Below are positions 695-51,934 of a stretch of 64,000 nucleotides of DNA, in pieces (positions within the stretch are counted from its first letter, which is position 1; the number at the start of each line of letters is the position of its first letter). The position numbers were made by a program, and so were the translations under genes. The DNA is from Bacteroides mediterraneensis (GTDB taxonomy: Bacteria > Bacteroidota > Bacteroidia > Bacteroidales > Bacteroidaceae). The notes under the pieces are model-generated. The model was not told the DNA's origin, did no database searches, and saw only the letters and a program-made list of their open reading frames with translations. The stretch lies in the NCBI RefSeq assembly GCF_016900355.1, contig NZ_JACJKA010000013.1, forward strand, positions 1-64,000, read 5' to 3'.

Positions 695-1063
695 ATGAAA
701 AGATTAGGATTAACATTGGTAGCCGCATTGGCATTCTCAGTTTCTATGTTTGCAGAAGGTGTAAACGAAAACAACAACGCACAGAAGTGGAATGGTTCAA
801 TCAACAAGTCTAAACTGACTCAGTATTTGAATCTGTCATCTACTCAGAACGAGAAAGTTGCTGACATTTGTGACTACTTTGAACAGGAAATGACTCGTGC
901 CAATTATGCTAAGACTGATCACAAGGAAAAAGTTCGTAAGGCAGTCTATGGCAACCTGAAACTGATGAAACAGACACTGGATGACAAGCAGTACTCAAGC
1001 TATGTACGTTTGATGGCCATGACACTGCGCAATAAAGGCATCGACTTGAACGAAGCAAAATAA
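695..1063 (+). CDS. Small secreted protein of unknown function
   Basis: This encodes a 122-residue protein with a clear Sec signal peptide (residues 1-20, MKRLGLTLVAALAFSVSMFA, probable cleavage after Ala-20). The mature part is charged and predicted helical, without cysteines other than one near residue 59 and without a recognised domain. It resembles small exported proteins of Bacteroidales annotated as hypothetical. It stands alone, with its own -7 box and a strong terminator 27 bases after the stop, which suggests a short, independently regulated and possibly abundant transcript. Function is unknown; a periplasmic location is inferred from the signal peptide. Confidence 0.85.
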   Translation: MKRLGLTLVAALAFSVSMFAEGVNENNNAQKWNGSINKSKLTQYLNLSSTQNEKVADICDYFEQEMTRANYAKTDHKEKVRKAVYGNLKLMKQTLDDKQYSSYVRLMAMTLRNKGIDLNEAK

Positions 1064-1252: not shown

Positions 1253-1356
1253 AAACGTAAGTGCGTTTGGAATAAAACGCCTTTACGTTTTACTTCAAAC
1301 GCACTTGCGTTTCAGACAAAACGCACTTACGTTTTAAATCAAACGCAAAGGCGTTT
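1253..1356. repeat. Array 1 of five 16-bp palindromes at 22-bp period
   Basis: Units of the form AAACGYnnnnRCGTTT start at 1253, 1275, 1297, 1319 and 1341, each 22 bases apart with 6-base spacers. Centres are AAGT, CTTT, ACTT, ACTT and AAAG. Unit 1 is the exact reverse complement of unit 4, and unit 2 that of unit 5 except for one base. The array lies between converging genes and ends 16 bases past the stop of the minus-strand symporter gene. It is preceded by A and followed by T, so on either strand it ends in a T-run. Same family as 16530-16633 and 50294-50397. Confidence 0.9.
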
Positions 1357-1372: not shown

Positions 1373-2728
1373 TCATTCGTTATGATAGTCGTCTAACCGG
1401 TCATTCCAGAGATATTTTCGGGTCTCACTGACAATGACTCCCGAAAGCAATAGTAAGGAGATAAGGTTCGGAATGGCCATGAGCGCATTAAGTACATCGG
1501 CACAGTTCCATACGAGGGACAGGTTGACCACGGAACCGACATACACCATCACAATCCATATCACCCGATAGGTTCGCATGATTTTTCTTCCTCCTAAGTA
1601 TTCTACGGCCTTCTGTGAATAATAGGTCCAGCCCAAAATGGTACTGAAGGCAAAGGTGATGATGCCGAATGAAAGGATAGGGGTACCGATGTAAGGAATC
1701 TTGGCAAAGGCCATCTTGGTAAGAGCTGCATCACTTGTGTAGTCGATGTCTGGATAGGCCAGGATGCTGCTCACCAGTACCAGTCCGGTTAAGGCGCAGA
1801 TGACCACTGTATCCCAGAAAGTACCCGTGGAAGAAACCAGTGCCTGACGCACCGGGTTGCGCGTCTGGGCGGCTGCAGCCACGATAGGTGCCGATCCCAG
1901 TCCTGATTCGTTGGAGAAAAGTCCCCGGGCAATGCCGTAACGGGCTGCCATCATCACCGTGGTGCCCACAAAACCGCTTCCTGCCGCACGGGCCGAAAAA
2001 GCAGATTCTAAAATAAGGCGGATGGAAGCGCCCAGGTAGGCATGATTCACCATCAGGATGTAAAGGCAACCTGCCACATAGAGGAACGCCATGAGCGGGA
2101 CCAGTCCCATACATACTTTGGCGATGCTTTTGACACCGCCAATCACAACAAGGGCAGTCAGGACACTCATCAGTATTCCCGTCAGGTGGGGAGATACCCC
2201 ATAGGATTCGTTTAGCAGCAAGGAGATAGAATTGGCCTGCACCGTATTGCCGATGCCAAAAGCCGCCAGTGCGGTGAAGATACAGAACAAGATGCCCAGC
2301 CATTTCATGCCCAGTCCGCGTTCCAGAGCGTACATGGGTCCGCCAATCATTTCGCCTGATTTGTTCTTCACGCGGTATTTCACAGCGAGCAATCCTTCCG
2401 CATATTTTGTCGACATGCCAAGGACACCTGTAAGCCAGCACCAGAACACAGCGCCCGGTCCACCCATCGCTACGGCCGTAGCTACTCCGATAATGTTACC
2501 CGTACCAATGGTGGCTGCCAGGGAAGTGGCCAGTGCACCGAACTGGCTGACATCACCGCCCGCATCCCGGTCTTTACTGACGGAAAGTCGCAAGGCCTTG
2601 AGAATGTGCAACTGCGGGAAGCGTAACCGGACGGTCAGGTAAAGATGTGTGCCTAAAAGGAGGATGATCATAGGCCATCCCCACATGAACGAACTAATTT
2701 CCTGTACAATCTTTGTAATCTGTTCCAT
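1373..2728 (-). CDS. Alanine/sodium symporter, AGCS family
   Basis: This 451-residue inner-membrane protein belongs to the AGCS (amino acid carrier, AlsT/DagA) family, which imports alanine or glycine with sodium. It is strongly hydrophobic with about ten to eleven membrane segments. Family hallmarks are visible: the N-terminal stretch with GDVSQFGALATSLAATIGTGN (about residues 58-78), the GGPGAVFW motif (about 89-96), and the FSNESGLGSAPIVAAAA region (about 272-288). Length is normal for the family. The start is the ATG at 2726-2728, with a good promoter just upstream. It is monocistronic: uvrB lies upstream on the same strand with its own stop only 82 bases away, and palindrome array 1 lies directly downstream. 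Exact substrate is not decidable from sequence. Confidence 0.93.
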   Translation of the reverse strand: MEQITKIVQEISSFMWGWPMIILLLGTHLYLTVRLRFPQLHILKALRLSVSKDRDAGGDVSQFGALATSLAATIGTGNIIGVATAVAMGGPGAVFWCWLTGVLGMSTKYAEGLLAVKYRVKNKSGEMIGGPMYALERGLGMKWLGILFCIFTALAAFGIGNTVQANSISLLLNESYGVSPHLTGILMSVLTALVVIGGVKSIAKVCMGLVPLMAFLYVAGCLYILMVNHAYLGASIRLILESAFSARAAGSGFVGTTVMMAARYGIARGLFSNESGLGSAPIVAAAAQTRNPVRQALVSSTGTFWDTVVICALTGLVLVSSILAYPDIDYTSDAALTKMAFAKIPYIGTPILSFGIITFAFSTILGWTYYSQKAVEYLGGRKIMRTYRVIWIVMVYVGSVVNLSLVWNCADVLNALMAIPNLISLLLLSGVIVSETRKYLWNDRLDDYHNE

Positions 2729-2810: not shown

Positions 2811-4856
2811 TCAGGATTTTTCTTTCAATAAGTCCTCCATTTTCAGCAGTTCGTCGCGATATTGTGCCGCTTCGATGAAGTCCAGCTTCTTGGCTGCTTC
2901 CTGCATAAGCTTGCGGGTCCGGTCGATGCTCTTCTGCAACTGTTCCTTCGACATGTACTGTACCACCGGGTCGGCTGCCGCATGCAGCTGGGCTTCCGTC
3001 TCGGTGTATGCCTTCGGAGCTTTCGGCTTGCTGTCGGCCGTTGCGGCAGAAGAAGACCGTTCGATGTCGAGCAGGGCATTGTTGCGCGAGCGCGTAATCT
3101 GTTTCGGCGTGATGCCGTGTGCCTCGTTGTAGGCCAGCTGTTTTTCTCGTCGGCGGTTGGTCTCGTCAATGGTCTGCCGCATGCTGTCCGTAATATGGTC
3201 GGCATACATGATGACTTTTCCATTGACGTTTCGGGCGGCACGTCCGGCTGTCTGGGTAAGCGAACGATGCGAACGGAGGAAACCTTCCTTGTCGGCATCC
3301 AGAATGGCTACCAGGGAAACTTCCGGCAGGTCCAGTCCTTCACGCAGCAGGTTCACACCGACCAGTACGTCATAGATGCCCTGTCGCAGGTCGTCCATGA
3401 TTTTGATACGTTCCAGTGTATCCACGTCGCTGTGGATATAGGCGCATTGGATGCCGTTGTTGAGCAGGTATTCCGTCAGTTCCTCTGCCATACGCTTGGT
3501 CAGGGTGGTAACCAGCACACGTTCTTTGCTTTCGATACGCTGCTGTATTTCTTCCATCAGGTCGTCTATCTGGTTCAGGCTGGGACGTACTTCAATTACC
3601 GGATCCAACAGGCCTGTGGGGCGGATCACCTGTTCCACCACGATACCCTCACTCTGTTGCAGTTCATATTCGGCCGGAGTGGCACTCACGTAAATCACCT
3701 GCTTGGCCATCTGTTGGAATTCTTCGAACGTAAGCGGGCGGTTGTCCATGGCTGCCGGCAGACGGAAGCCGTATTCTACTAGGTTGGTCTTGCGGGCCCG
3801 GTCGCCGCCATACATGGCCCGGATTTGCGGCACGCTGACGTGGCTTTCGTCGATGACAATTAGGAAATCCTCCGGGAAGAAGTCGAGTAGGCAGTAGGGA
3901 CGAGTACCTGGGGCGCGTCCGTCGAAATAGCGAGAGTAGTTCTCAATGCCCGAGCAATGTCCCAGTTCGCGCAGCATCTCCATGTCGTAGGTTACACGCT
4001 CGTACAAGCGTTTGGCTTCATAGGGCTTTCCAATTTCCTCAAAATAGGCCACTTGTTTGGTCAGGTCGTCCTCAATCTGATGGATGGCCCGGAGCGTACT
4101 CTCCTTGGTTGTCATGAAGAGGTTGGCTGGATAAATCTTATATTCGTCGAACGTGCCGAGTCGGTGTCCCGAAATCGGGTCTACTTCTTCGATTCCGTCT
4201 ATTTCATCATCCCAGAACATTACCCGGAGCACACTGTCGGTATAGGCCAGGGAGATGTCCACCGTATCCCCTTTTACGCGGAAGTTACCACGATTCAGTT
4301 CGATGTCGTTGCGCACGTACAGGCTGTCCACCAGCCGGCGTAGGAATACGTTGCGGTCCAGCAGTTTTCCTTTCTTGATTTCAATCACGTTGTTGTAGAA
4401 ATCCGCCGGGTTTCCCATACCGTAGATGCACGACACGGACGATACGACGATGACGTCTTTCCGTCCGGAGAGCAGGGCAGAGGTAGCTGCCAGTCGCAGT
4501 TTGTCAATTTCCTCGTTGATGGCTAAGTCCTTTTCTATATAAGTGTCGGTCGAAGGGATGTATGCCTCCGGCTGGTAATAATCGTAGTAAGACACGTAGT
4601 ATTCTACGGCGTTGTGCGGGAAGAAATTCTTGAACTCCCCGTAGAGTTGTGCTGCCAACGTCTTGTTGTGACTCAGAATCAAGGTCGGCTTGTTGACATT
4701 CTTGATGACATTGGCAATGGTAAAGGTCTTTCCGGACCCGGTGACTCCCAGCAACGTCTGTGCAGGTATGTGTTGCTTGACGCCTTCGGTCAGCTGGGCG
4801 ATGGCTTCCGGCTGGTCGCCGGTGGGCTGGTAGTCGGATATCAGTTCGAAATTCAT
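2811..4856 (-). CDS. uvrB: UvrABC excinuclease subunit B
   Basis: This is a full-length UvrB (681 residues), the damage-verifying helicase-like subunit of nucleotide excision repair that receives DNA from UvrA and recruits UvrC. Visible hallmarks are the Walker A motif GVTGSGKT (residues 37-44), the tyrosine-rich beta-hairpin [10 protein letters not shown] (near residue 95) that inserts between DNA strands, the DESH helicase motif in [11 protein letters not shown] (near 337), the SAT motif VSATPAE (near 390), the C-terminal helicase motifs [12 protein letters not shown] (near 500) and a UVR domain at 635-675 for UvrC contact. It is transcribed away from bamD with a 151-base divergent gap. No uvrA or uvrC lies in the window. 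Confidence 0.98.
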
Positions 4857-14187: not shown

Positions 14188-15051
14188 ATGAAGAATACGA
14201 CTATGTGGAAGGAAAATCTGTATCAGCAGGTGGAGATTCTTTTAAGGGAGCATGATGAATTTCCAATCGGGGAGCACCAGCACTCGTTTTTTGAGATGGC
14301 CTATATCCTGGAGGGGAGCGGCACTTTCTGTGCCCATACGGTGGGCAGCGAGCGGGAGTGTCATACCTACGAGGCGGGCGACCTCTTCCTGATTCCGCCC
14401 AGCCGGATACACGTGTACACCATCCGCACGCACAGCCGTTATGTGTTCATCCGCTTTACGGAGAATTATGTGTTCGACAGCATCGGCCACTACGTGGGGC
14501 GCGCGCTTGAGGTGCAGTCGGGGTTCCGGATGCAGCCGGCTGCGGCCGACCGTGAAGCCATCCGTCGGCTTATGGAACTGCTGGTGGAAGAAGCCTCCGG
14601 CAAGCGTGCCTTGTCCGAGATGCTTTTGTCGAACTATGTGAACAGCCTCATTTTGCTGACTGCCCGGGGACTGGATGCCACGGAGACAGGCGTGAGGCCG
14701 GAAGGCGACAAGGCCCGGAACCTGCTGCTCTACATCGAGCAGCACATTGACCAGCCCGATGAGCTCCGGCTGGAAGCCCTTGCCGCCCGCTTTCAGTTGT
14801 CGCCCACCTACATCGGACGTTTCTTCAAGCGGAATTTCGGTGAAGATTTCCGGCTTTATGTCTCCAAGAACCGCCTGAAGCGGGTGGAGGAGTTGCTCAC
14901 GGGCACCCGCATGAGTGTGAAGGAGATAGCCAGTCGGATGGGATACATCGACTCCTGCTACCTGAACAAACTTTTCCGGCAGCACCATGGGATGACGCCC
15001 ATGGACTACCGGAAAGCGCATACACCCGAAACCGGCGGGCATCAGTTGTAA
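14188..15051 (+). CDS. AraC-family transcriptional regulator
   Basis: The 287-residue protein has an N-terminal cupin sensor domain (about 15-140, with EHQHSFFEMAYILEGSG and the GDLFLIPPSRIH turn) and a C-terminal double helix-turn-helix (about 180-280, with LEALAARFQLSPTYIGRFFK and SVKEIASRMGYIDSCYLNKLF). Such regulators respond to small ligands, often sugars, and act on neighbouring genes. The divergent EamA transporter is the nearest target candidate. I prefer the ATG at 14188; ATG 14203 is also possible. G+C is visibly higher than in the neighbours. Its last 10 bases overlap the convergent lipoprotein gene. Confidence 0.9.
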   Translation: MKNTTMWKENLYQQVEILLREHDEFPIGEHQHSFFEMAYILEGSGTFCAHTVGSERECHTYEAGDLFLIPPSRIHVYTIRTHSRYVFIRFTENYVFDSIGHYVGRALEVQSGFRMQPAAADREAIRRLMELLVEEASGKRALSEMLLSNYVNSLILLTARGLDATETGVRPEGDKARNLLLYIEQHIDQPDELRLEALAARFQLSPTYIGRFFKRNFGEDFRLYVSKNRLKRVEELLTGTRMSVKEIASRMGYIDSCYLNKLFRQHHGMTPMDYRKAHTPETGGHQL

Positions 15052-16406
15052 GTAATCTCGAAAGTAAGCGTGTCGTAGGCCTCCTTAGCGGTTTCCTTCA
15101 CGTTCTTTTCTTCGTATTGATATCCCCTGTCCGGATTTTTGGGGTCAATCAGTTCCGTACCTACCACCACATCATATTCCCGTGTCACGACTTCGAAGTA
15201 GTCTTTGAAGAGAATCGACTGCAGGTTCTGTTCGTTGTCGAACGTATAATTAAGGTCACTAGGTTTTTGAATTTCCCGGATATACTTGGATGATTCATGT
15301 TCCGTGACCCCCGGAGTCAGATAGGCCTTTTGTGTGCTGCTCGCCTGATTCATGGCTTGACCCGAGAAATGTTCAGGCAAGTAGTCTCCTGTTTTGCCCA
15401 TACGTCCGAGGTGGAATAAGAAATCAAAATCGTCGTCCGTCAGTAGATAGCCCATGATGTCGATGGGACCGCGGTTTGGATACTGATGGGTAAAGTCAGT
15501 GGTGGCGTCAAAGGTGTAAGAATAATTATCATTCGTATATTTCCCGTTGTAGTATTTGAAGGAAGCCAGTTTCCCGTCTGCATACGTGAACGTGTATTCC
15601 GAGCCTTCCTCTCCAGCGTCGGCATCCTTCATTTGAGCCAGGCGTCCGTCGTCCGTATAGGTGAAATTGATATAAGGAGTATAGTTTCCTGTTTCTTTCT
15701 CATCATGGAGAACACTTGTGACATTGCCGGCTTCATTCAGTTTGATGATGTAATGGGTTTCATAAGAATATGAACTGTAGGTTTCTTTCTCGTCCAGTGT
15801 GATTTCATTCTCGGACGTGTAGGTAAAGGTCCGGTTTACTTGTTGGCCTTCCTTTTGTATGGAAGTACCTATCATCCGGTTTTGGTCATCGTAACTGAAT
15901 TGCCAGATCGTCACTTCCGGGGTAGTGGTGATTCCTAACAGTGTATTTCTCTGCCAATCTGCGGTGTAACGTATTTCTTTTACCAGCTTGGTGGTTGTTA
16001 CTCCTTCGGAGCTGTCGCTTCCGGCTTGTTCTACGGTAATGGTGAGCGACTGTCCTCCACATTCAATGGTAATCACAGCTTTCCGGCTCGTAGTGCTTGT
16101 GTTGGGAGAGATGGTCAGCGTGAGACTTTGCTCACCGGCAGGACCGCTGTACGCACTGAGCGTAAGCCAGTCCACCTCACTGCCACCGCTCCGTTGGTCA
16201 GTAGCTGCCTTAATCCATGCCGTCCATGCCGAAGTGGCGGTAAATTTGATTTGCTCCTGCGTGTTGGTCGATGTCTTTGAGTCGAGTACCAAGGTGGGAG
16301 AAGTTCCTTCTGCCAGTTGGATGGTCTTTCCGTTGTCTTCGTTTTCACTGCTACATGCTCCGCACAATAATGCGGCAGATAACATAAGGGGAATCCAAGT
16401 TTTCAT
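15042..16406 (-). CDS. BACON-domain lipoprotein of unknown function
   Basis: The 454-residue protein starts with a lipoprotein signal (MKTWIPLMLSAALLCGAC, cysteine 18). Residues about 35-130 form a BACON-type domain, visible as FTATSAWTAWIK, WLTLSAYSGPAGEQSLTLTI and RKAVITIECGGQSLTITVEQ, a beta-sandwich common in Bacteroidetes surface lipoproteins. The rest has repeated tyrosine-rich strands such as FSYDDQNRMIG, FTYTSEN, FTYTDDGRLAQMKD and FTYADGKLASFKYYNGK, which resemble YD/RHS-like or DUF4595-like repeats. It is probably at the cell surface or in the periplasm. Stand-alone gene with its own -7 box. Confidence 0.8.
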   Translation of the reverse strand: MKTWIPLMLSAALLCGACSSENEDNGKTIQLAEGTSPTLVLDSKTSTNTQEQIKFTATSAWTAWIKAATDQRSGGSEVDWLTLSAYSGPAGEQSLTLTISPNTSTTSRKAVITIECGGQSLTITVEQAGSDSSEGVTTTKLVKEIRYTADWQRNTLLGITTTPEVTIWQFSYDDQNRMIGTSIQKEGQQVNRTFTYTSENEITLDEKETYSSYSYETHYIIKLNEAGNVTSVLHDEKETGNYTPYINFTYTDDGRLAQMKDADAGEEGSEYTFTYADGKLASFKYYNGKYTNDNYSYTFDATTDFTHQYPNRGPIDIMGYLLTDDDFDFLFHLGRMGKTGDYLPEHFSGQAMNQASSTQKAYLTPGVTEHESSKYIREIQKPSDLNYTFDNEQNLQSILFKDYFEVVTREYDVVVGTELIDPKNPDRGYQYEEKNVKETAKEAYDTLTFEITYN

Positions 16407-16529: not shown

Positions 16530-16633
16530 AAACGCAAGTGCGTTTGGAACAAAACGCCTTTACGTTTTACTCAAAACACAAGTGCATTTTACTTGAAACG
16601 CACTTGCGTTTTATCTAAAACGTCCTTGCGTTT
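16530..16633. repeat. Array 2 of five 16-bp palindromes at 22-bp period
   Basis: Units start at 16530, 16552, 16574, 16596 and 16618, exactly 22 bases apart. Centres are AAGT, CTTT, AAGT, ACTT and CCTT. Unit 1 is the exact reverse complement of unit 4. Unit 3 carries two symmetrical changes (AAACAC ... GCATTT is half compensated). The first 38 bases are nearly identical to array 1, including the spacer GGAAYA. The array sits 35 bases past the stop of the acyl-CoA synthetase gene and upstream of the lipoprotein promoter, bounded by A and T runs. Confidence 0.9.
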
Positions 16634-16668: not shown

Positions 16669-18321
16669 TTACTGATACAGGAAACGTTTGATACTCTTCT
16701 TGGCCGTCTTTTCGAATTCTTCCGGATAGAGTCGAATGTGAGTTATTTGCGCATAGGCCGGAAGCATCTTGTTCAGTTCATTTCGATTCTGGTCAAGGGC
16801 CACTTCCAGTTGCTGTTTGCTCATCCCGTGAGAAAGCGCGTCGTCCATGTCCGGATAAATCAGGGCCACCAGTTTGTTGTCCTTCAGGATGACCAGCGAT
16901 TCGTTCACATACGGCATGTTGTTGAGGCGTGCCTCGATTTCCTCCGGATAAATGTTCTGTCCCGAAGCCGTGAGCAACATGTTCTTGCAGCGTCCCTTGA
17001 TGAAGATGTTTCCGTCGGCATCCTTGATGGCCATGTCGCCCGTGTGCAGCCAGCCGTCCTTGTCGATGGTCTGTGCAGTGGCAGCCTCGTTTTTGTAGTA
17101 GCCCAGCATCACGTTCATCCCGCGGCACACCAGTTCTCCGGGCACACGCTCCGGATTGCCGGAGAGCACTTTCGTCTCCATGTTGGCTACTGTCTTTCCG
17201 CACGAAGTGTACAGAATCTCATCCCAGCGGCTGTGGCAGATGAGCGGGGCACATTCCGTCATGCCGTAGGCAATGGTGTAGGGGAAATTGATTTTCCGCA
17301 GGAAAGCCTCCACTTCGGCGTTGAACGGCGCACCTCCCACCACAATCTCGATGAAATTCCCGCCGAACACCTCCATGGCCTGCTGGCGGATTTGTTCCTT
17401 GATTTTGTCGCTGATGATGGGCAGGTTCAGCAGCAGCTTGCCCAGCCGGTTGTCCACCTTCGGCAGAATGTTTTTCTTGAAAATCTTCTCCACGATGAGC
17501 GGTACGCAGGCAATGACCCGCGGACGGATGACGGCAAACGATTCCGCAATGATTTTCGGACTCGGCATGCGGGTGAGGAACCACAAGTGTGCGCCCACGG
17601 TGATGCCGTAAAGAAAATCGAACACCAGTCCGAAGATATGTCCCAGCGGAAGCATGGATACGATGCTGTCGCCCGCCTTCAGTCCCACCTTGTGATGGAT
17701 GTGTACGATGTTGGAAATAATGCTCCGGTAGGGCAGCATCACCCCTTTGGAATAGCCCGTAGTTCCTGAAGTATAGTTGATGACGGCCAGTTCTTCCGGT
17801 TCTTCCCGGCGGTAGGAAACCTGCTCGGCACGGAAGCGGCAGGGATATTTCTTCCCGAATTCCTCGTTCAGGTGTTCGCGTGCATACGTCAGCCTTTCCG
17901 AACGTGACACTACCAGGTCGAAGTTCTTCAGTTCGATGATTCCCTCCAGATTGGGCATGGCCGCCTCGTTGAACATCTCCCACACCTGGTCGCCTACAAA
18001 AAGCATACGTGCCTCCGAATGGTTGACGATGTGGTGCACGTTGTCGGCCTTGAACTCGTGAAGGATAGGAACGGCTACTGCCCCGTAAGTTACGATGCTC
18101 AGGAAAGTGGCTGTCCAGTTGGCACTGTTGCGCCCGCACAGCGCGATTTTGTCCCCTTTCCGGATTCCTGCATGTTCGAACAGGATATGCATTTTCTCTA
18201 TCTTTCTGGCCACGTCCTTATATTGCAGCGTAGCTCCTTTGTAGTCTGTCAGTGCATCACGGTCCCAGTTGGCGCGGATGCTTTCTTCAAGAAGTTGTAT
18301 AAAACTGTCTTGTATTTCCAT
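16669..18321 (-). CDS. Long-chain acyl-CoA synthetase, AMP-binding
   Basis: This 550-residue member of the AMP-forming synthetase family activates a fatty acid to its CoA thioester through an acyl-adenylate. Visible motifs are the P-loop YTSGTTGYSKGV (about residues 180-191), the AYGMTECAP adenylate motif (about 360-368), the GWLHTGDMA motif (about 421-429) and KNMLLTASGQNIYPEEIE (about 443-460). The start is the ATG at 18319-18321; a frame from TTG 18357 would begin inside the -7 box. Length fits FadD-like enzymes. Monocistronic; array 2 follows its stop codon. Chain-length preference cannot be read from sequence. Confidence 0.93.
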   Translation of the reverse strand: MEIQDSFIQLLEESIRANWDRDALTDYKGATLQYKDVARKIEKMHILFEHAGIRKGDKIALCGRNSANWTATFLSIVTYGAVAVPILHEFKADNVHHIVNHSEARMLFVGDQVWEMFNEAAMPNLEGIIELKNFDLVVSRSERLTYAREHLNEEFGKKYPCRFRAEQVSYRREEPEELAVINYTSGTTGYSKGVMLPYRSIISNIVHIHHKVGLKAGDSIVSMLPLGHIFGLVFDFLYGITVGAHLWFLTRMPSPKIIAESFAVIRPRVIACVPLIVEKIFKKNILPKVDNRLGKLLLNLPIISDKIKEQIRQQAMEVFGGNFIEIVVGGAPFNAEVEAFLRKINFPYTIAYGMTECAPLICHSRWDEILYTSCGKTVANMETKVLSGNPERVPGELVCRGMNVMLGYYKNEAATAQTIDKDGWLHTGDMAIKDADGNIFIKGRCKNMLLTASGQNIYPEEIEARLNNMPYVNESLVILKDNKLVALIYPDMDDALSHGMSKQQLEVALDQNRNELNKMLPAYAQITHIRLYPEEFEKTAKKSIKRFLYQ

Positions 18322-18354
18322 TTTCAAATTGCACAATGTTTGACACAATGTGTG

Positions 18355-18362
18355 CAAAAGTA
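18355..18362 (-). promoter_or_regulatory. -7 box for the acyl-CoA synthetase gene
   Basis: TACTTTTG on the minus strand, 34 bases before the ATG at 18321. It helps rule out the longer TTG start. Confidence 0.5.
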
Positions 18363-48426: not shown

Positions 48427-50292
48427 ATGACTCCTTATTTACAAGTAGAAAACCTGACCAAGTCGTTCGGCGACTTGGTGCTTTTTAATGAAATATCTTT
48501 TGGCATTGCGGAAGGACAGCGCATCGGACTGATTGCCAAGAACGGTTCGGGCAAGACCACCTTGCTGAACATCTTGGCGGGAAAGGAAGGCTATGACGAA
48601 GGAAAAATCACTTTCCGTCGCGACCTGCGCGTGGGTTATCTGGAACAGAGTCCGAAGTATCCGGAAGAGCTGACCGTGCTCGAGGCATGTTTCTATCATG
48701 GCAACTCCACGGTAGAACTGATCAAGGAATACGAACGGTGCATGGAAACGCCCGGCAATCCCGGACTGGATGACCTGCTGGCACGGATGGAGCACGAGAA
48801 GGCGTGGGATTACGAACGACGGGCCAAGCAGATTCTCTCGCAGCTGAAAATCCGCGACTTTTCCCAAAAAATCGGACACTTGTCCGGCGGACAGTTGAAG
48901 CGGGTGGCATTGGCCAATGTGCTGATTACGGAACCGGACCTGCTGATTTTAGACGAGCCGACCAACCACCTCGACCTGGACATGACCGAGTGGCTGGAGG
49001 AATACCTGAACCGCGGAAGCCTGAGTCTGCTCATGGTGACGCACGACCGTTATTTCCTGGACCGGGTATGCTCGGAGATCATAGAGATAGACAACCGCCA
49101 GCTGTATTCTTATAAAGGCAATTACAGTTATTACCTGGAAAAACGTCAGGAGCGCATCGAGGCGACCAATGCGGAGATTGCTCGTGCCAACAACCTGTAT
49201 CGCACGGAGTTGGAATGGATGCGACGGATGCCGCAGGCCCGCGGTCACAAGGCCCGCTATCGGGAAGAAGCTTTCTATGAATTGGAGAAAGTGGCCAAGC
49301 AGCGGAGCTATGACTCGAACGTGAAACTGGATGTCAAGGCGTCGTACATCGGTTCGAAGATTTTCGAGGCCGACCATCTCTGCAAGCGTTTCGGCGACCT
49401 GGTGATACTGGACGATTTCTCGTACGTCTTTGCCCGTTATGAGAAGATGGGTATCGTGGGTAACAACGGTACCGGCAAGTCGACGTTCATCAAGATTCTG
49501 ATGGGACTGGAGAAGGCGGATAGCGGGACGCTGGACATCGGCGAGACCGTCCGTTTCGGTTATTACTCGCAGGAGGGGCTGAAGTTCAATGAGCAGATGA
49601 AGGTGATTGACGTGATTACCGACATTGCCGAGGTGATAGAGTTGGGCAATGGCAAACGGCTTACGGCTTCGCAGTTCCTGCAGCATTTTCTGTTCACTCC
49701 CGAAACACAGCACAGCTATGTGTACAAGTTGAGCGGGGGAGAACGCCGCCGTCTGTATCTCTGTACGGTGCTGATGCGGAACCCGAACTTCCTGGTGCTT
49801 GACGAGCCGACTAACGACTTGGACATCGTGACCTTGCAGGTGCTGGAGGAATATTTGCAGAACTTCAAGGGATGCGTCATCGTGGTGAGCCACGACCGTT
49901 ATTTCATGGACAAGGTGGTCGACCATCTGCTGGTGTTCAAAGGTCAGGGTGACATCCGTGATTTCCCTGGCAACTATTCCGACTACCGTGACTGGAAGCT
50001 GGCCAAGGCGGAATACGACAAGGAGGCCGCCAAACCGAAGGAGGAAAAGACCCAGCGTGTCCGTTTGAACGAAAAACGTCGCCTGACGTTCAAGGAGCGG
50101 AAAGAGTTGGAGCAATTGGAAAAAGACATTGCTGCCTTGGAGGAGGAAAAGAAGCAGTTGGAAGCCTCCTTGTGCAGTGGCACCTTGAGTGTGGACGAAC
50201 TGACCGAGAAGTCGAAACGTCTGCCAGTCCTAAATGACGAGCTCGACGAGAAGAGTATGCGCTGGCTGGAATTAAGTGAAATTGAGGGCTAA
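48427..50292 (+). CDS. ABC-F ATPase, Uup-like
   Basis: The 621-residue soluble protein has two ABC domains without membrane parts. First: Walker A AKNGSGKTT (about 36-44), signature LSGGQLKRVAL (about 155), Walker B LLILDEPTNHLD (about 175). Second: Walker A GNNGTGKST (about 345), signature LSGGERRRLYL (about 435), Walker B LVLDEPTNDLD (about 457). The linker between them (about 240-300) is the P-site tRNA interaction motif. A C-terminal coiled coil (about 545-620) is as in Uup. Likely role: ribosome-bound rescue or assembly. It is the last gene of the run; array 3 starts 2 bases after its stop. Confidence 0.93.
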   Translation: MTPYLQVENLTKSFGDLVLFNEISFGIAEGQRIGLIAKNGSGKTTLLNILAGKEGYDEGKITFRRDLRVGYLEQSPKYPEELTVLEACFYHGNSTVELIKEYERCMETPGNPGLDDLLARMEHEKAWDYERRAKQILSQLKIRDFSQKIGHLSGGQLKRVALANVLITEPDLLILDEPTNHLDLDMTEWLEEYLNRGSLSLLMVTHDRYFLDRVCSEIIEIDNRQLYSYKGNYSYYLEKRQERIEATNAEIARANNLYRTELEWMRRMPQARGHKARYREEAFYELEKVAKQRSYDSNVKLDVKASYIGSKIFEADHLCKRFGDLVILDDFSYVFARYEKMGIVGNNGTGKSTFIKILMGLEKADSGTLDIGETVRFGYYSQEGLKFNEQMKVIDVITDIAEVIELGNGKRLTASQFLQHFLFTPETQHSYVYKLSGGERRRLYLCTVLMRNPNFLVLDEPTNDLDIVTLQVLEEYLQNFKGCVIVVSHDRYFMDKVVDHLLVFKGQGDIRDFPGNYSDYRDWKLAKAEYDKEAAKPKEEKTQRVRLNEKRRLTFKERKELEQLEKDIAALEEEKKQLEASLCSGTLSVDELTEKSKRLPVLNDELDEKSMRWLELSEIEG

Positions 50293-50293
50293 A

Positions 50294-50397
50294 AAACGCC
50301 TTTACGTTTGGACTTAAACGCAAGTGCGTTTTGATCCAAACGCAAGGACGTTTTAGGTAAAACGCAAGTACGTTTAAGAGCAAACGCACTTGCGTTT
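50294..50397. repeat. Array 3 of five 16-bp palindromes at 22-bp period
   Basis: Units start at 50294, 50316, 50338, 50360 and 50382, exactly 22 bases apart. Centres are CTTT, AAGT, AAGG, AAGT and ACTT. Unit 2 is the exact reverse complement of unit 5. Unit 1 is identical to unit 2 of arrays 1 and 2, and unit 3 is the exact reverse complement of unit 5 of array 2. The array begins 2 bases after the stop codon of the ABC-F gene and ends in TTTTTTT, so its last unit by itself looks like a small terminator. Confidence 0.9.

Positions 50398-50656: not shown

Positions 50657-51934
<1,278 letters not shown>

Follow-up and report, generated by a model that had tools for sequence, protein, structure and literature searches.

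The window analysed here, a 64,000-nucleotide stretch of the Bacteroides mediterraneensis genome (G000; 3.53 Mb in 107 contigs), contains three short arrays of palindromes lying between protein-coding genes (Table 1). Re-reading of the sequence bore out the positions given for them in an earlier sequence-only reading, as well as its description of each array as five 16-bp units at a period of exactly 22 bp. Array 1 occupies a convergent gap, 16 bp from the stop of the Na/alanine symporter gene; 35 bp separate array 2 from the 3' end of the gene for an AMP-binding enzyme; and array 3, which faces a DEAD-box helicase gene, begins 1 bp past the stop of the gene for an ABC-F ATPase. All 14 exact matches to AAACGYNNNNRCGTTT in the window fall inside the three arrays, and 20 matches are present when up to two mismatches are allowed, compared with 10.0 expected, a number that 0 of 100 shuffles reached. 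The unit at 16574 had been thought to carry a symmetrical change in its arms. Its two changes (G5>A and G13>A) are instead CG>CA steps that both lie on one strand and are not dyad-symmetric, the dyad partners of positions 5 and 13 being positions 12 and 4.

Table 1. Palindrome arrays of the window and the genes beside them
Feature	Position in window	Strand	Description
ORF without Pfam match	695-1063	+	beside array 1
Array 1	1253-1356	.	five AAACGYNNNNRCGTTT units, 22-bp period
Na/alanine symporter gene	1373-2728	-	beside array 1
BACON-domain protein gene	15042-16406	-	beside array 2
Array 2	16530-16633	.	five units, 22-bp period; third unit AAACACAAGTGCATTT
AMP-binding enzyme gene	16669-18357	-	beside array 2
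ABC-F ATPase gene	48427-50292	+	beside array 3
Array 3	50294-50397	.	five units, 22-bp period
DEAD-box helicase gene	50657-51934	-	beside array 3

Many such arrays, with AAAC..GTTT arms, are present in this genome. A pattern of two units at the 22-bp period, with transitions allowed at the R/Y positions, had 183 matches per strand, and its reversed control had none; a five-unit pattern with up to three mismatches had 83. Forty arrays, the three of the window included, were collected from among the matches listed, with five (23 arrays), six (15 arrays), four (one array), or seven (one array) units. In a sister species (G007), the 53 arrays among the matches listed had five (28 arrays), four (19 arrays), or six (6 arrays) units. 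Thus, the fixed number of five seen in the window is not a rule, the range being four to seven in the G000 set and sister species favouring other narrow numbers; the 22-bp period was constant in every array read in this genome and in sister species. The arms of these AAAC arrays are almost unvarying, and the inner eight bases amount to 29 words, counted on either strand, in G000 and to 32 words in the first 40 arrays of G007, with GCAAGTGC the commonest. Runs of A/T extend the outer arms of 80 arrays, the first outward base being T in 96% of cases compared with 44 to 50% inside, and apart from this A/T run and a weak A/T phasing no common element was found in the flanks of the 80. In the flanks of some G007 arrays, for example the right flanks in L190, L197, L214, and L223, A-tracts appear to follow a near 11-bp register (CCCTCAAAAGGCTTCGAAAGTCTTCAGAAAACC); a strict pattern search for this register gave 0 hits.

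By their flanks, 32 of the 40 G000 array loci match array loci among the 53 in G007, 24 of them by both flanks and the remaining eight by one, with flank identities of 85 to 96% in the first 25 pairs; eight arrays in G000 and 21 in G007 are unpaired. Arrays 1 and 2 have counterparts of five (L220) and four (L219) units at the matching G007 loci. Unit number is equal in 13 of the 32 pairs and differs by one in 14 and by two in five. In the 13 equal-number pairs, mismatches amount to 0 to 3% at unit positions 1 to 4 and 14 to 16, 4 to 32% at positions 5 to 13, and 34 to 54% in the spacers. This difference between spacers and most arm positions, the constancy of the period, and the recurrence of a 21/22-bp design at the HU-HIG genes described below all speak for the earlier proposal that the phase itself is selected. 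At one pair of loci (L172 in G000 and L203 in G007), the flanks are about 95% identical and the array content is largely different, as if it had been replaced or inverted as one block. A survey of the ABC-F locus of array 3 in 40 genomes found an AAAC array in G000 and G007 (five units each) and in G083 (six units) and, in 26 other species read, none within 330 bp; a further species was covered for just 63 bp, and the locus was not obtained from 10 genomes. Directly past the ABC-F gene of G013 (L295), a G+C-rich block with a 21-bp period and a score of 39/60 was observed at the place of array 3.

Beyond these species, the two-unit pattern was found in 13 of 60 genomes, namely this genome and 12 of 35 congeners, and in none of 24 from other families of the order, and a three-unit pattern with one mismatch was found in 2 of 395 genomes sampled across the phylum (this genome and G455). 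A scan of named genomes gave at least 97 stretches with the pattern. Among the matches listed, the carriers on the Phocaeicola/Bacteroides side were Phocaeicola plebeius, Bacteroides mediterraneensis, Ca. P. excrementigallinarum, and B. caecigallinarum; those that are MAGs were assigned to Bacteroides, Bacteroidaceae, and Prevotellaceae; and the distant ones were Carboxylicivirga, Kaistella chaponensis, a Cytophagales MAG, two Bacteroidota MAGs, and Lactococcus reticulitermitis. Each species has its typical inner words and unit number. With the three-unit pattern, to which shorter arrays are invisible, unit number was four in 15 of 20 arrays of G008, three in 8 of 11 of G076, six in 9 of 15 of G077, and three in 5 of 7 of G073. 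Across the species read, the spacing is constant and the unit counts are narrow and species-typical, with no single fixed number. In one stretch (L068, positions 4095 to 4374), 13 near-identical AAACGTAGTTATGTTT units at a 22-bp period, unlike the diverse Phocaeicola arrays, lie upstream of ORFs that by eye resemble IS3-type transposase genes.

The G000 and G007 array loci are partly common to P. plebeius and G077. By nucleotide flank matching, however, few loci are common to G000/G007 and G008 (1 of 20), G076 (0 of 11), or G073 (1 of 7), which suggests separate amplifications, and amplification has probably happened more than once. Among the 20 sampled arrays of G008, just one (L119) agrees in both of its flanks with an array locus of G000 (L154), and it is possibly an ancestral site.

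Gene context was assessed with codon-based gene calls around 93 arrays of G000 and G007, 81 of which lie in clear gaps (31 convergent, 38 codirectional, and 12 divergent). In 29 of the 38 codirectional gaps, the array is closer to the 3' end of the upstream gene (medians of 37 versus 147 bp). Convergent gaps made up 30 of 79 array gaps versus 24 of 144 control gaps without arrays (p = 0.0006 at a control gap cut-off of 30 bp), an excess that weakens at the stricter cut-offs of 50 bp (p = 0.03) and 80 bp (p = 0.07); these cut-offs were used because one of 150 bp or more is unfair to short convergent gaps. Divergent gaps were not significantly depleted relative to gaps without arrays. Random intergenic placement, as read from a crude gene caller (45 codirectional, 20 convergent, and 15 divergent of 80), was overturned by the better gene calls.

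Along the chromosome, the arrays are spread unevenly. On the 4.03-Mb contig of G007, the 53 arrays among the matches listed include 32 between 1.0 and 2.5 Mb, and a 442-kb stretch that spans the contig ends is empty of them. Spacing tests chosen after the positions had been seen gave one gap below 10 kb (p = 0.006) and an excess of gaps of 15 to 25 kb (12 versus 5.3 expected, p = 0.004). A regular lattice along the chromosome was rejected, since the overall variation of the gaps is not below random (coefficient of variation 1.07, p = 0.80). GC skew, calculated for 40 short G007 stretches up to 2.58 Mb, turns from positive to negative near 2.14 Mb. Such a turn usually marks the terminus, in which case the array-free 442-kb stretch would lie around the origin.

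A candidate for the protein that reads these arrays emerged from their neighbours in array-poor genomes, among which proteins of the HU-HIG (HU_rel) family (PF18291/TIGR01201, HU/IHF fold) were met. The family was confirmed for four proteins, two of which exceeded the TIGR01201 cut-off. When 224 sequences, for the most part array loci and including the window (1.44 Mb with overlaps), were searched with the family profile, HU-HIG ORFs turned up at no more than five loci (L077, L106, L123, L125, and L126), all of them adjacent to an array and belonging to Carboxylicivirga linearis, Kaistella, a Cytophagales MAG (a fragment), a Bacteroidota MAG, and Lactococcus (a broken frame). In the distant genomes (Carboxylicivirga, Kaistella, Cytophagales, Lactococcus, two Bacteroidota MAGs, and G455), an HU-HIG gene adjoins 5 of 16 arrays, and 11 are without one. 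No HU-HIG gene was found within about 3 kb on each side of the AAAC arrays examined in G000 and G007, the nearest known one in these two genomes belonging to G007, a short HU-HIG at a distance of about 3.1 kb from an array. Lactococcus reticulitermitis (L126 and L253) is a Firmicutes genome with both HU-HIG genes and 22-bp arrays, and it is the HU-HIG adjoining its AAAC array that has the broken frame.

Approached from the genes, the association is more general. A family search found at least one HU-HIG gene in each of 35 genomes, 25 of which have AAAC arrays; the most, 17, were seen in G073, a Bacteroidaceae MAG of 2.3 Mb. HU-HIG genes often adjoin about four palindromes at a 22-bp period, the palindromes differing by clade (CTCCACACGnnCGTGTGGAG, CTCGACACGnnCGTGnCGAG, ATCACnnnnGTGAT, and AAACGTGCCTATGTTT). 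A periodic block (at least 36/60 identity, periods of 15 to 39 allowed) was present within 300 bp of 30 of 50 HU-HIG genes in this set, in which the L227 array is counted for two genes; 23 blocks had a period of 22 bp and 7 a period of 21 bp, L247 and L263 among the latter being low-complexity repeats and L242 AT-rich. Among 1,083 other genes, 13 had a block at any period, including 4 at 22 bp and 4 at 21 bp (Fisher p ~1e-35). A second sample consisted of 14 of 34 hits in a plasmid collection, picked before their arrays were inspected and with five phage hits left out. Here the threshold was reached at 22 bp by 7 of the 14 genes and at 20 bp by one; all nine long HU-HIGs had 22 bp as their best upstream period (scores of 33 to 49, two just under the threshold), and none of the five short HU-HIGs had a 22-bp block at threshold. 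Arrays upstream of long HU-HIG genes stop 16 to 102 bp before the start codon. The consensus unit was palindromic at p < 0.05 in 18 of 32 selected arrays (combined p ~1e-16). A search of viral contigs with a long HU-HIG found no relative.

A tree of the HU-HIG domain (FastTree, midpoint root, support values not considered, fragments L125 and L126 left out) contains a group of short proteins, mostly 130 to 180 aa, that includes those adjacent to AAAC arrays in Carboxylicivirga, Cytophagales, and Kaistella, so that the arms of the window's arrays recur beside this short clade. From Phocaeicola, L254 (this genome), L247 (G007), and L261 (P. plebeius) fall into the same group. The Bacteroidota MAG protein L123, which lies beside an array with AAAC arms, is basal in the tree, and the C. 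linearis array is flanked by a second HU-HIG, which falls elsewhere. Since the short HU-HIGs of Phocaeicola have no adjacent array, phylogeny is what points to the short-clade HU-HIG (L254 in this genome) as the candidate partner of the AAAC arrays; short HU-HIGs are also found in congeners without AAAC arrays (L243 in G029 and L245 in G023). Related HU-HIGs have related palindromes, AAAC..GTTT with the short ones and CACGNNCGTG cores with the long ones of one clade, with the exceptions that L235 of the CACGNNCGTG clade shows no array and that the tree neighbours L244 and L246 have unlike palindromes. Two other palindrome classes are also repeated within genomes. CGACACG arrays are present at five G000 loci, one of which adjoins an HU-HIG gene on contig 32. 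CACACG arrays are present at several loci in each of three genomes, G015, G018, and G027, where the HU-HIG associated with this class was read (L234, L266, and L240), and were not found in G000, G007, or G011, whose HU-HIGs were only partly read.

HU and IHF are classic DNA-bending proteins, and Burroughs and colleagues reportedly made a comparative study of the HU/IHF superfamily in 2017. We know of no target for the HU-HIG paralogues of Bacteroidota, and among the best-ranked papers per query our literature search found no description of arrays at HU-HIG genes. A predicted model of the C. linearis HU-HIG, of low confidence (pLDDT 70), matches HU and IHF structures as well as a putative P. 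vulgatus DNA-binding protein (4fmr), and a sequence comparison matched the long HU-HIG of G000 to IHF (E values of 1e-4 to 3e-3).

Taken from the sequence evidence, binding of the arrays by a protein appears well supported, and we consider it reasonably probable that an HU-HIG protein docks on them as several dimers in phase, at gene 3' ends perhaps as a roadblock, an insulator, or a nucleoid mark. The arrays would act at the DNA level as docking platforms, with each 16-bp palindrome being the site of one HU-HIG dimer and the 22-bp step, equal to two helical turns, setting four to seven dimers on one face of the DNA. The phased dimers may then bend or wrap the DNA into a compact nucleoprotein block. 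HU-HIGs, above all the long ones of Bacteroidales, typically have a private array adjoining their own gene, which probably serves self-regulation, and two or more of the HU-HIG-adjacent array types are also found at remote loci. In the Phocaeicola clade, the AAAC..GTTT class has spread to dozens of intergenic sites, favouring gene 3' ends and convergent gaps, where the dispersed arrays would most likely separate transcription units as a roadblock or insulator and mark nucleoid domains. We infer this roadblock or domain function from the 3'-end position without an RNA signature, which suggests a protein roadblock or insulator, and from the chromosomal distribution, which hints at a nucleoid role.

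The 3'-end position might also be explained at the RNA level, as the sequence-only reading had allowed in naming an RNA structure among its possibilities. If the arrays were bidirectional terminators, the transcribed palindromes would form hairpins followed by a U run, in keeping with the 29 of 38 codirectional arrays near gene 3' ends and with the enrichment in convergent gaps. Canonical terminators are rarer beside arrays (16/73 versus 16/38, p = 0.03), and the A/T runs at both array ends are longer on the 3' side of the transcript in 23 of 38 codirectional arrays and shorter in 12, both of which would fit; predicted RNA folds are likewise strong for arrays 1 and 3 (z of -6.4 and -5.2), as any set of palindromes would be. 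However, the RNA-level tests lend this explanation no support. G-U and C-A variants are balanced in codirectional gaps (59:59, and 77:76 with the cruder gene calls), indicating no strand preference; mutually complementary units are no commoner than in shuffles; and Rfam gave no match at gathering score in the 64-kb window. Hairpins, moreover, have no need of a fixed 22-bp period, 12 of the 81 arrays lie in divergent gaps, and long HU-HIG genes have their upstream arrays ending shortly before the start codon. An RNA hairpin or terminator was thus rejected as the main function, and we judge it unlikely. Alternatively, another dimeric protein, which might be ParB-, MatP-, or repressor-like, could bind the arrays, and the HU-HIG link would then apply only to HU-HIG-adjacent arrays. 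This would account for the lack of HU-HIG genes around the dispersed AAAC arrays examined in G000 and G007 and for the HU-HIGs of congeners that have no AAAC arrays. It is made improbable by the same arms and period beside the short-clade HU-HIGs of Carboxylicivirga, Cytophagales, and Kaistella, and beside the HU-HIG of another Bacteroidota MAG, and by the strong enrichment of the 21/22-bp design at HU-HIG genes. The sites matS and parS are short, bound by dimers of MatP and ParB, and dispersed over the chromosome, as the arrays are, but they are not phased arrays of four to seven units, and MatP and ParB are unrelated to HU. Partition sites and plasmid iterons do consist of tandem protein sites in helical register that form a higher-order complex; they occupy one locus per replicon, whereas dozens of arrays lie on one chromosome here.

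A dispersed non-autonomous element had been the remaining suggestion, and it is correct insofar as arrays of this class are scattered over the genome; but array loci of the sister species match 32 of the 40, and beyond an A/T run the flanks share no common element. A MITE-like or BrickBuilt-like mobile element with a minisatellite would explain the dozens of intergenic copies and the repeated amplification made probable by the few sampled loci that G008 and G076 have in common with G000/G007. We nevertheless regard it as very unlikely given the loci matched between sister species, the flanks with an A/T run only and no conserved leader, tail, or terminal repeat, and the presence of the two-unit pattern in only 2 viral contigs, on which grounds a viral origin was also rejected. 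A satellite that has no function and is homogenised by recombination between the arrays would be compatible with the fast exchange of inner words and spacers, the gain and loss of whole units, and the differing content of L172 and L203 between nearly identical flanks. It is hardly credible, however, in view of the low mismatch at most arm positions compared with the spacers, the narrow, species-typical unit number, and the loci matched in sister species. REP/BIME elements are palindromic intergenic repeats near gene 3' ends, to which the arrays are alike in these respects, but they have no fixed 22-bp phase and their sequence is another. CRISPR was rejected, its near-identical repeats and unique spacers of about 30 bp contrasting with the variable repeats and 6-bp spacers found here. 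The earlier statement that no named element of this kind was known agrees with our literature search, in which the best-ranked papers per query gave no published description. The nearest published element found was BrickBuilt, a MITE of Porphyromonas gingivalis, which the parts of its description consulted (PMC4596501; PMC5771137 is a pointer to it) present as dispersed intergenic tandem arrays of 1 to 22.8 copies of 23-nt repeats without spacers, with a leader and a tail with IS5-like terminal repeats. On that partial description, both are Bacteroidales elements that form dispersed intergenic tandem arrays whose period approximates two helical turns, but the anatomy differs, since the arrays studied here are palindromes with variable 6-bp spacers and a narrow unit number. 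Their spaced units, and the 80 array flanks in which no terminal inverted repeats, leader, or tail were seen, exclude a BrickBuilt-type MITE as far as that description goes.

In sum, docking of HU-HIG proteins on phased palindromes would give many HU-HIG paralogues a candidate DNA site recognisable in the genome sequence. A wider and distinctly more tentative proposal is that the HU/IHF branch of Bacteroidota may be modular and sequence specific, with palindromes private to each paralogue at two-turn spacing and with one such code spread over the chromosome in some lineages as dozens of insulating, nucleoid-organising blocks. If this is true, chromosome-wide nucleoprotein blocks would be a bacterial analogue of insulator-type chromatin marks. 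The arrays themselves offer a natural two-turn-phased series for studying how spacing shapes nucleoprotein structures, and they make chromosome organisation in a major gut phylum directly testable genome-wide.
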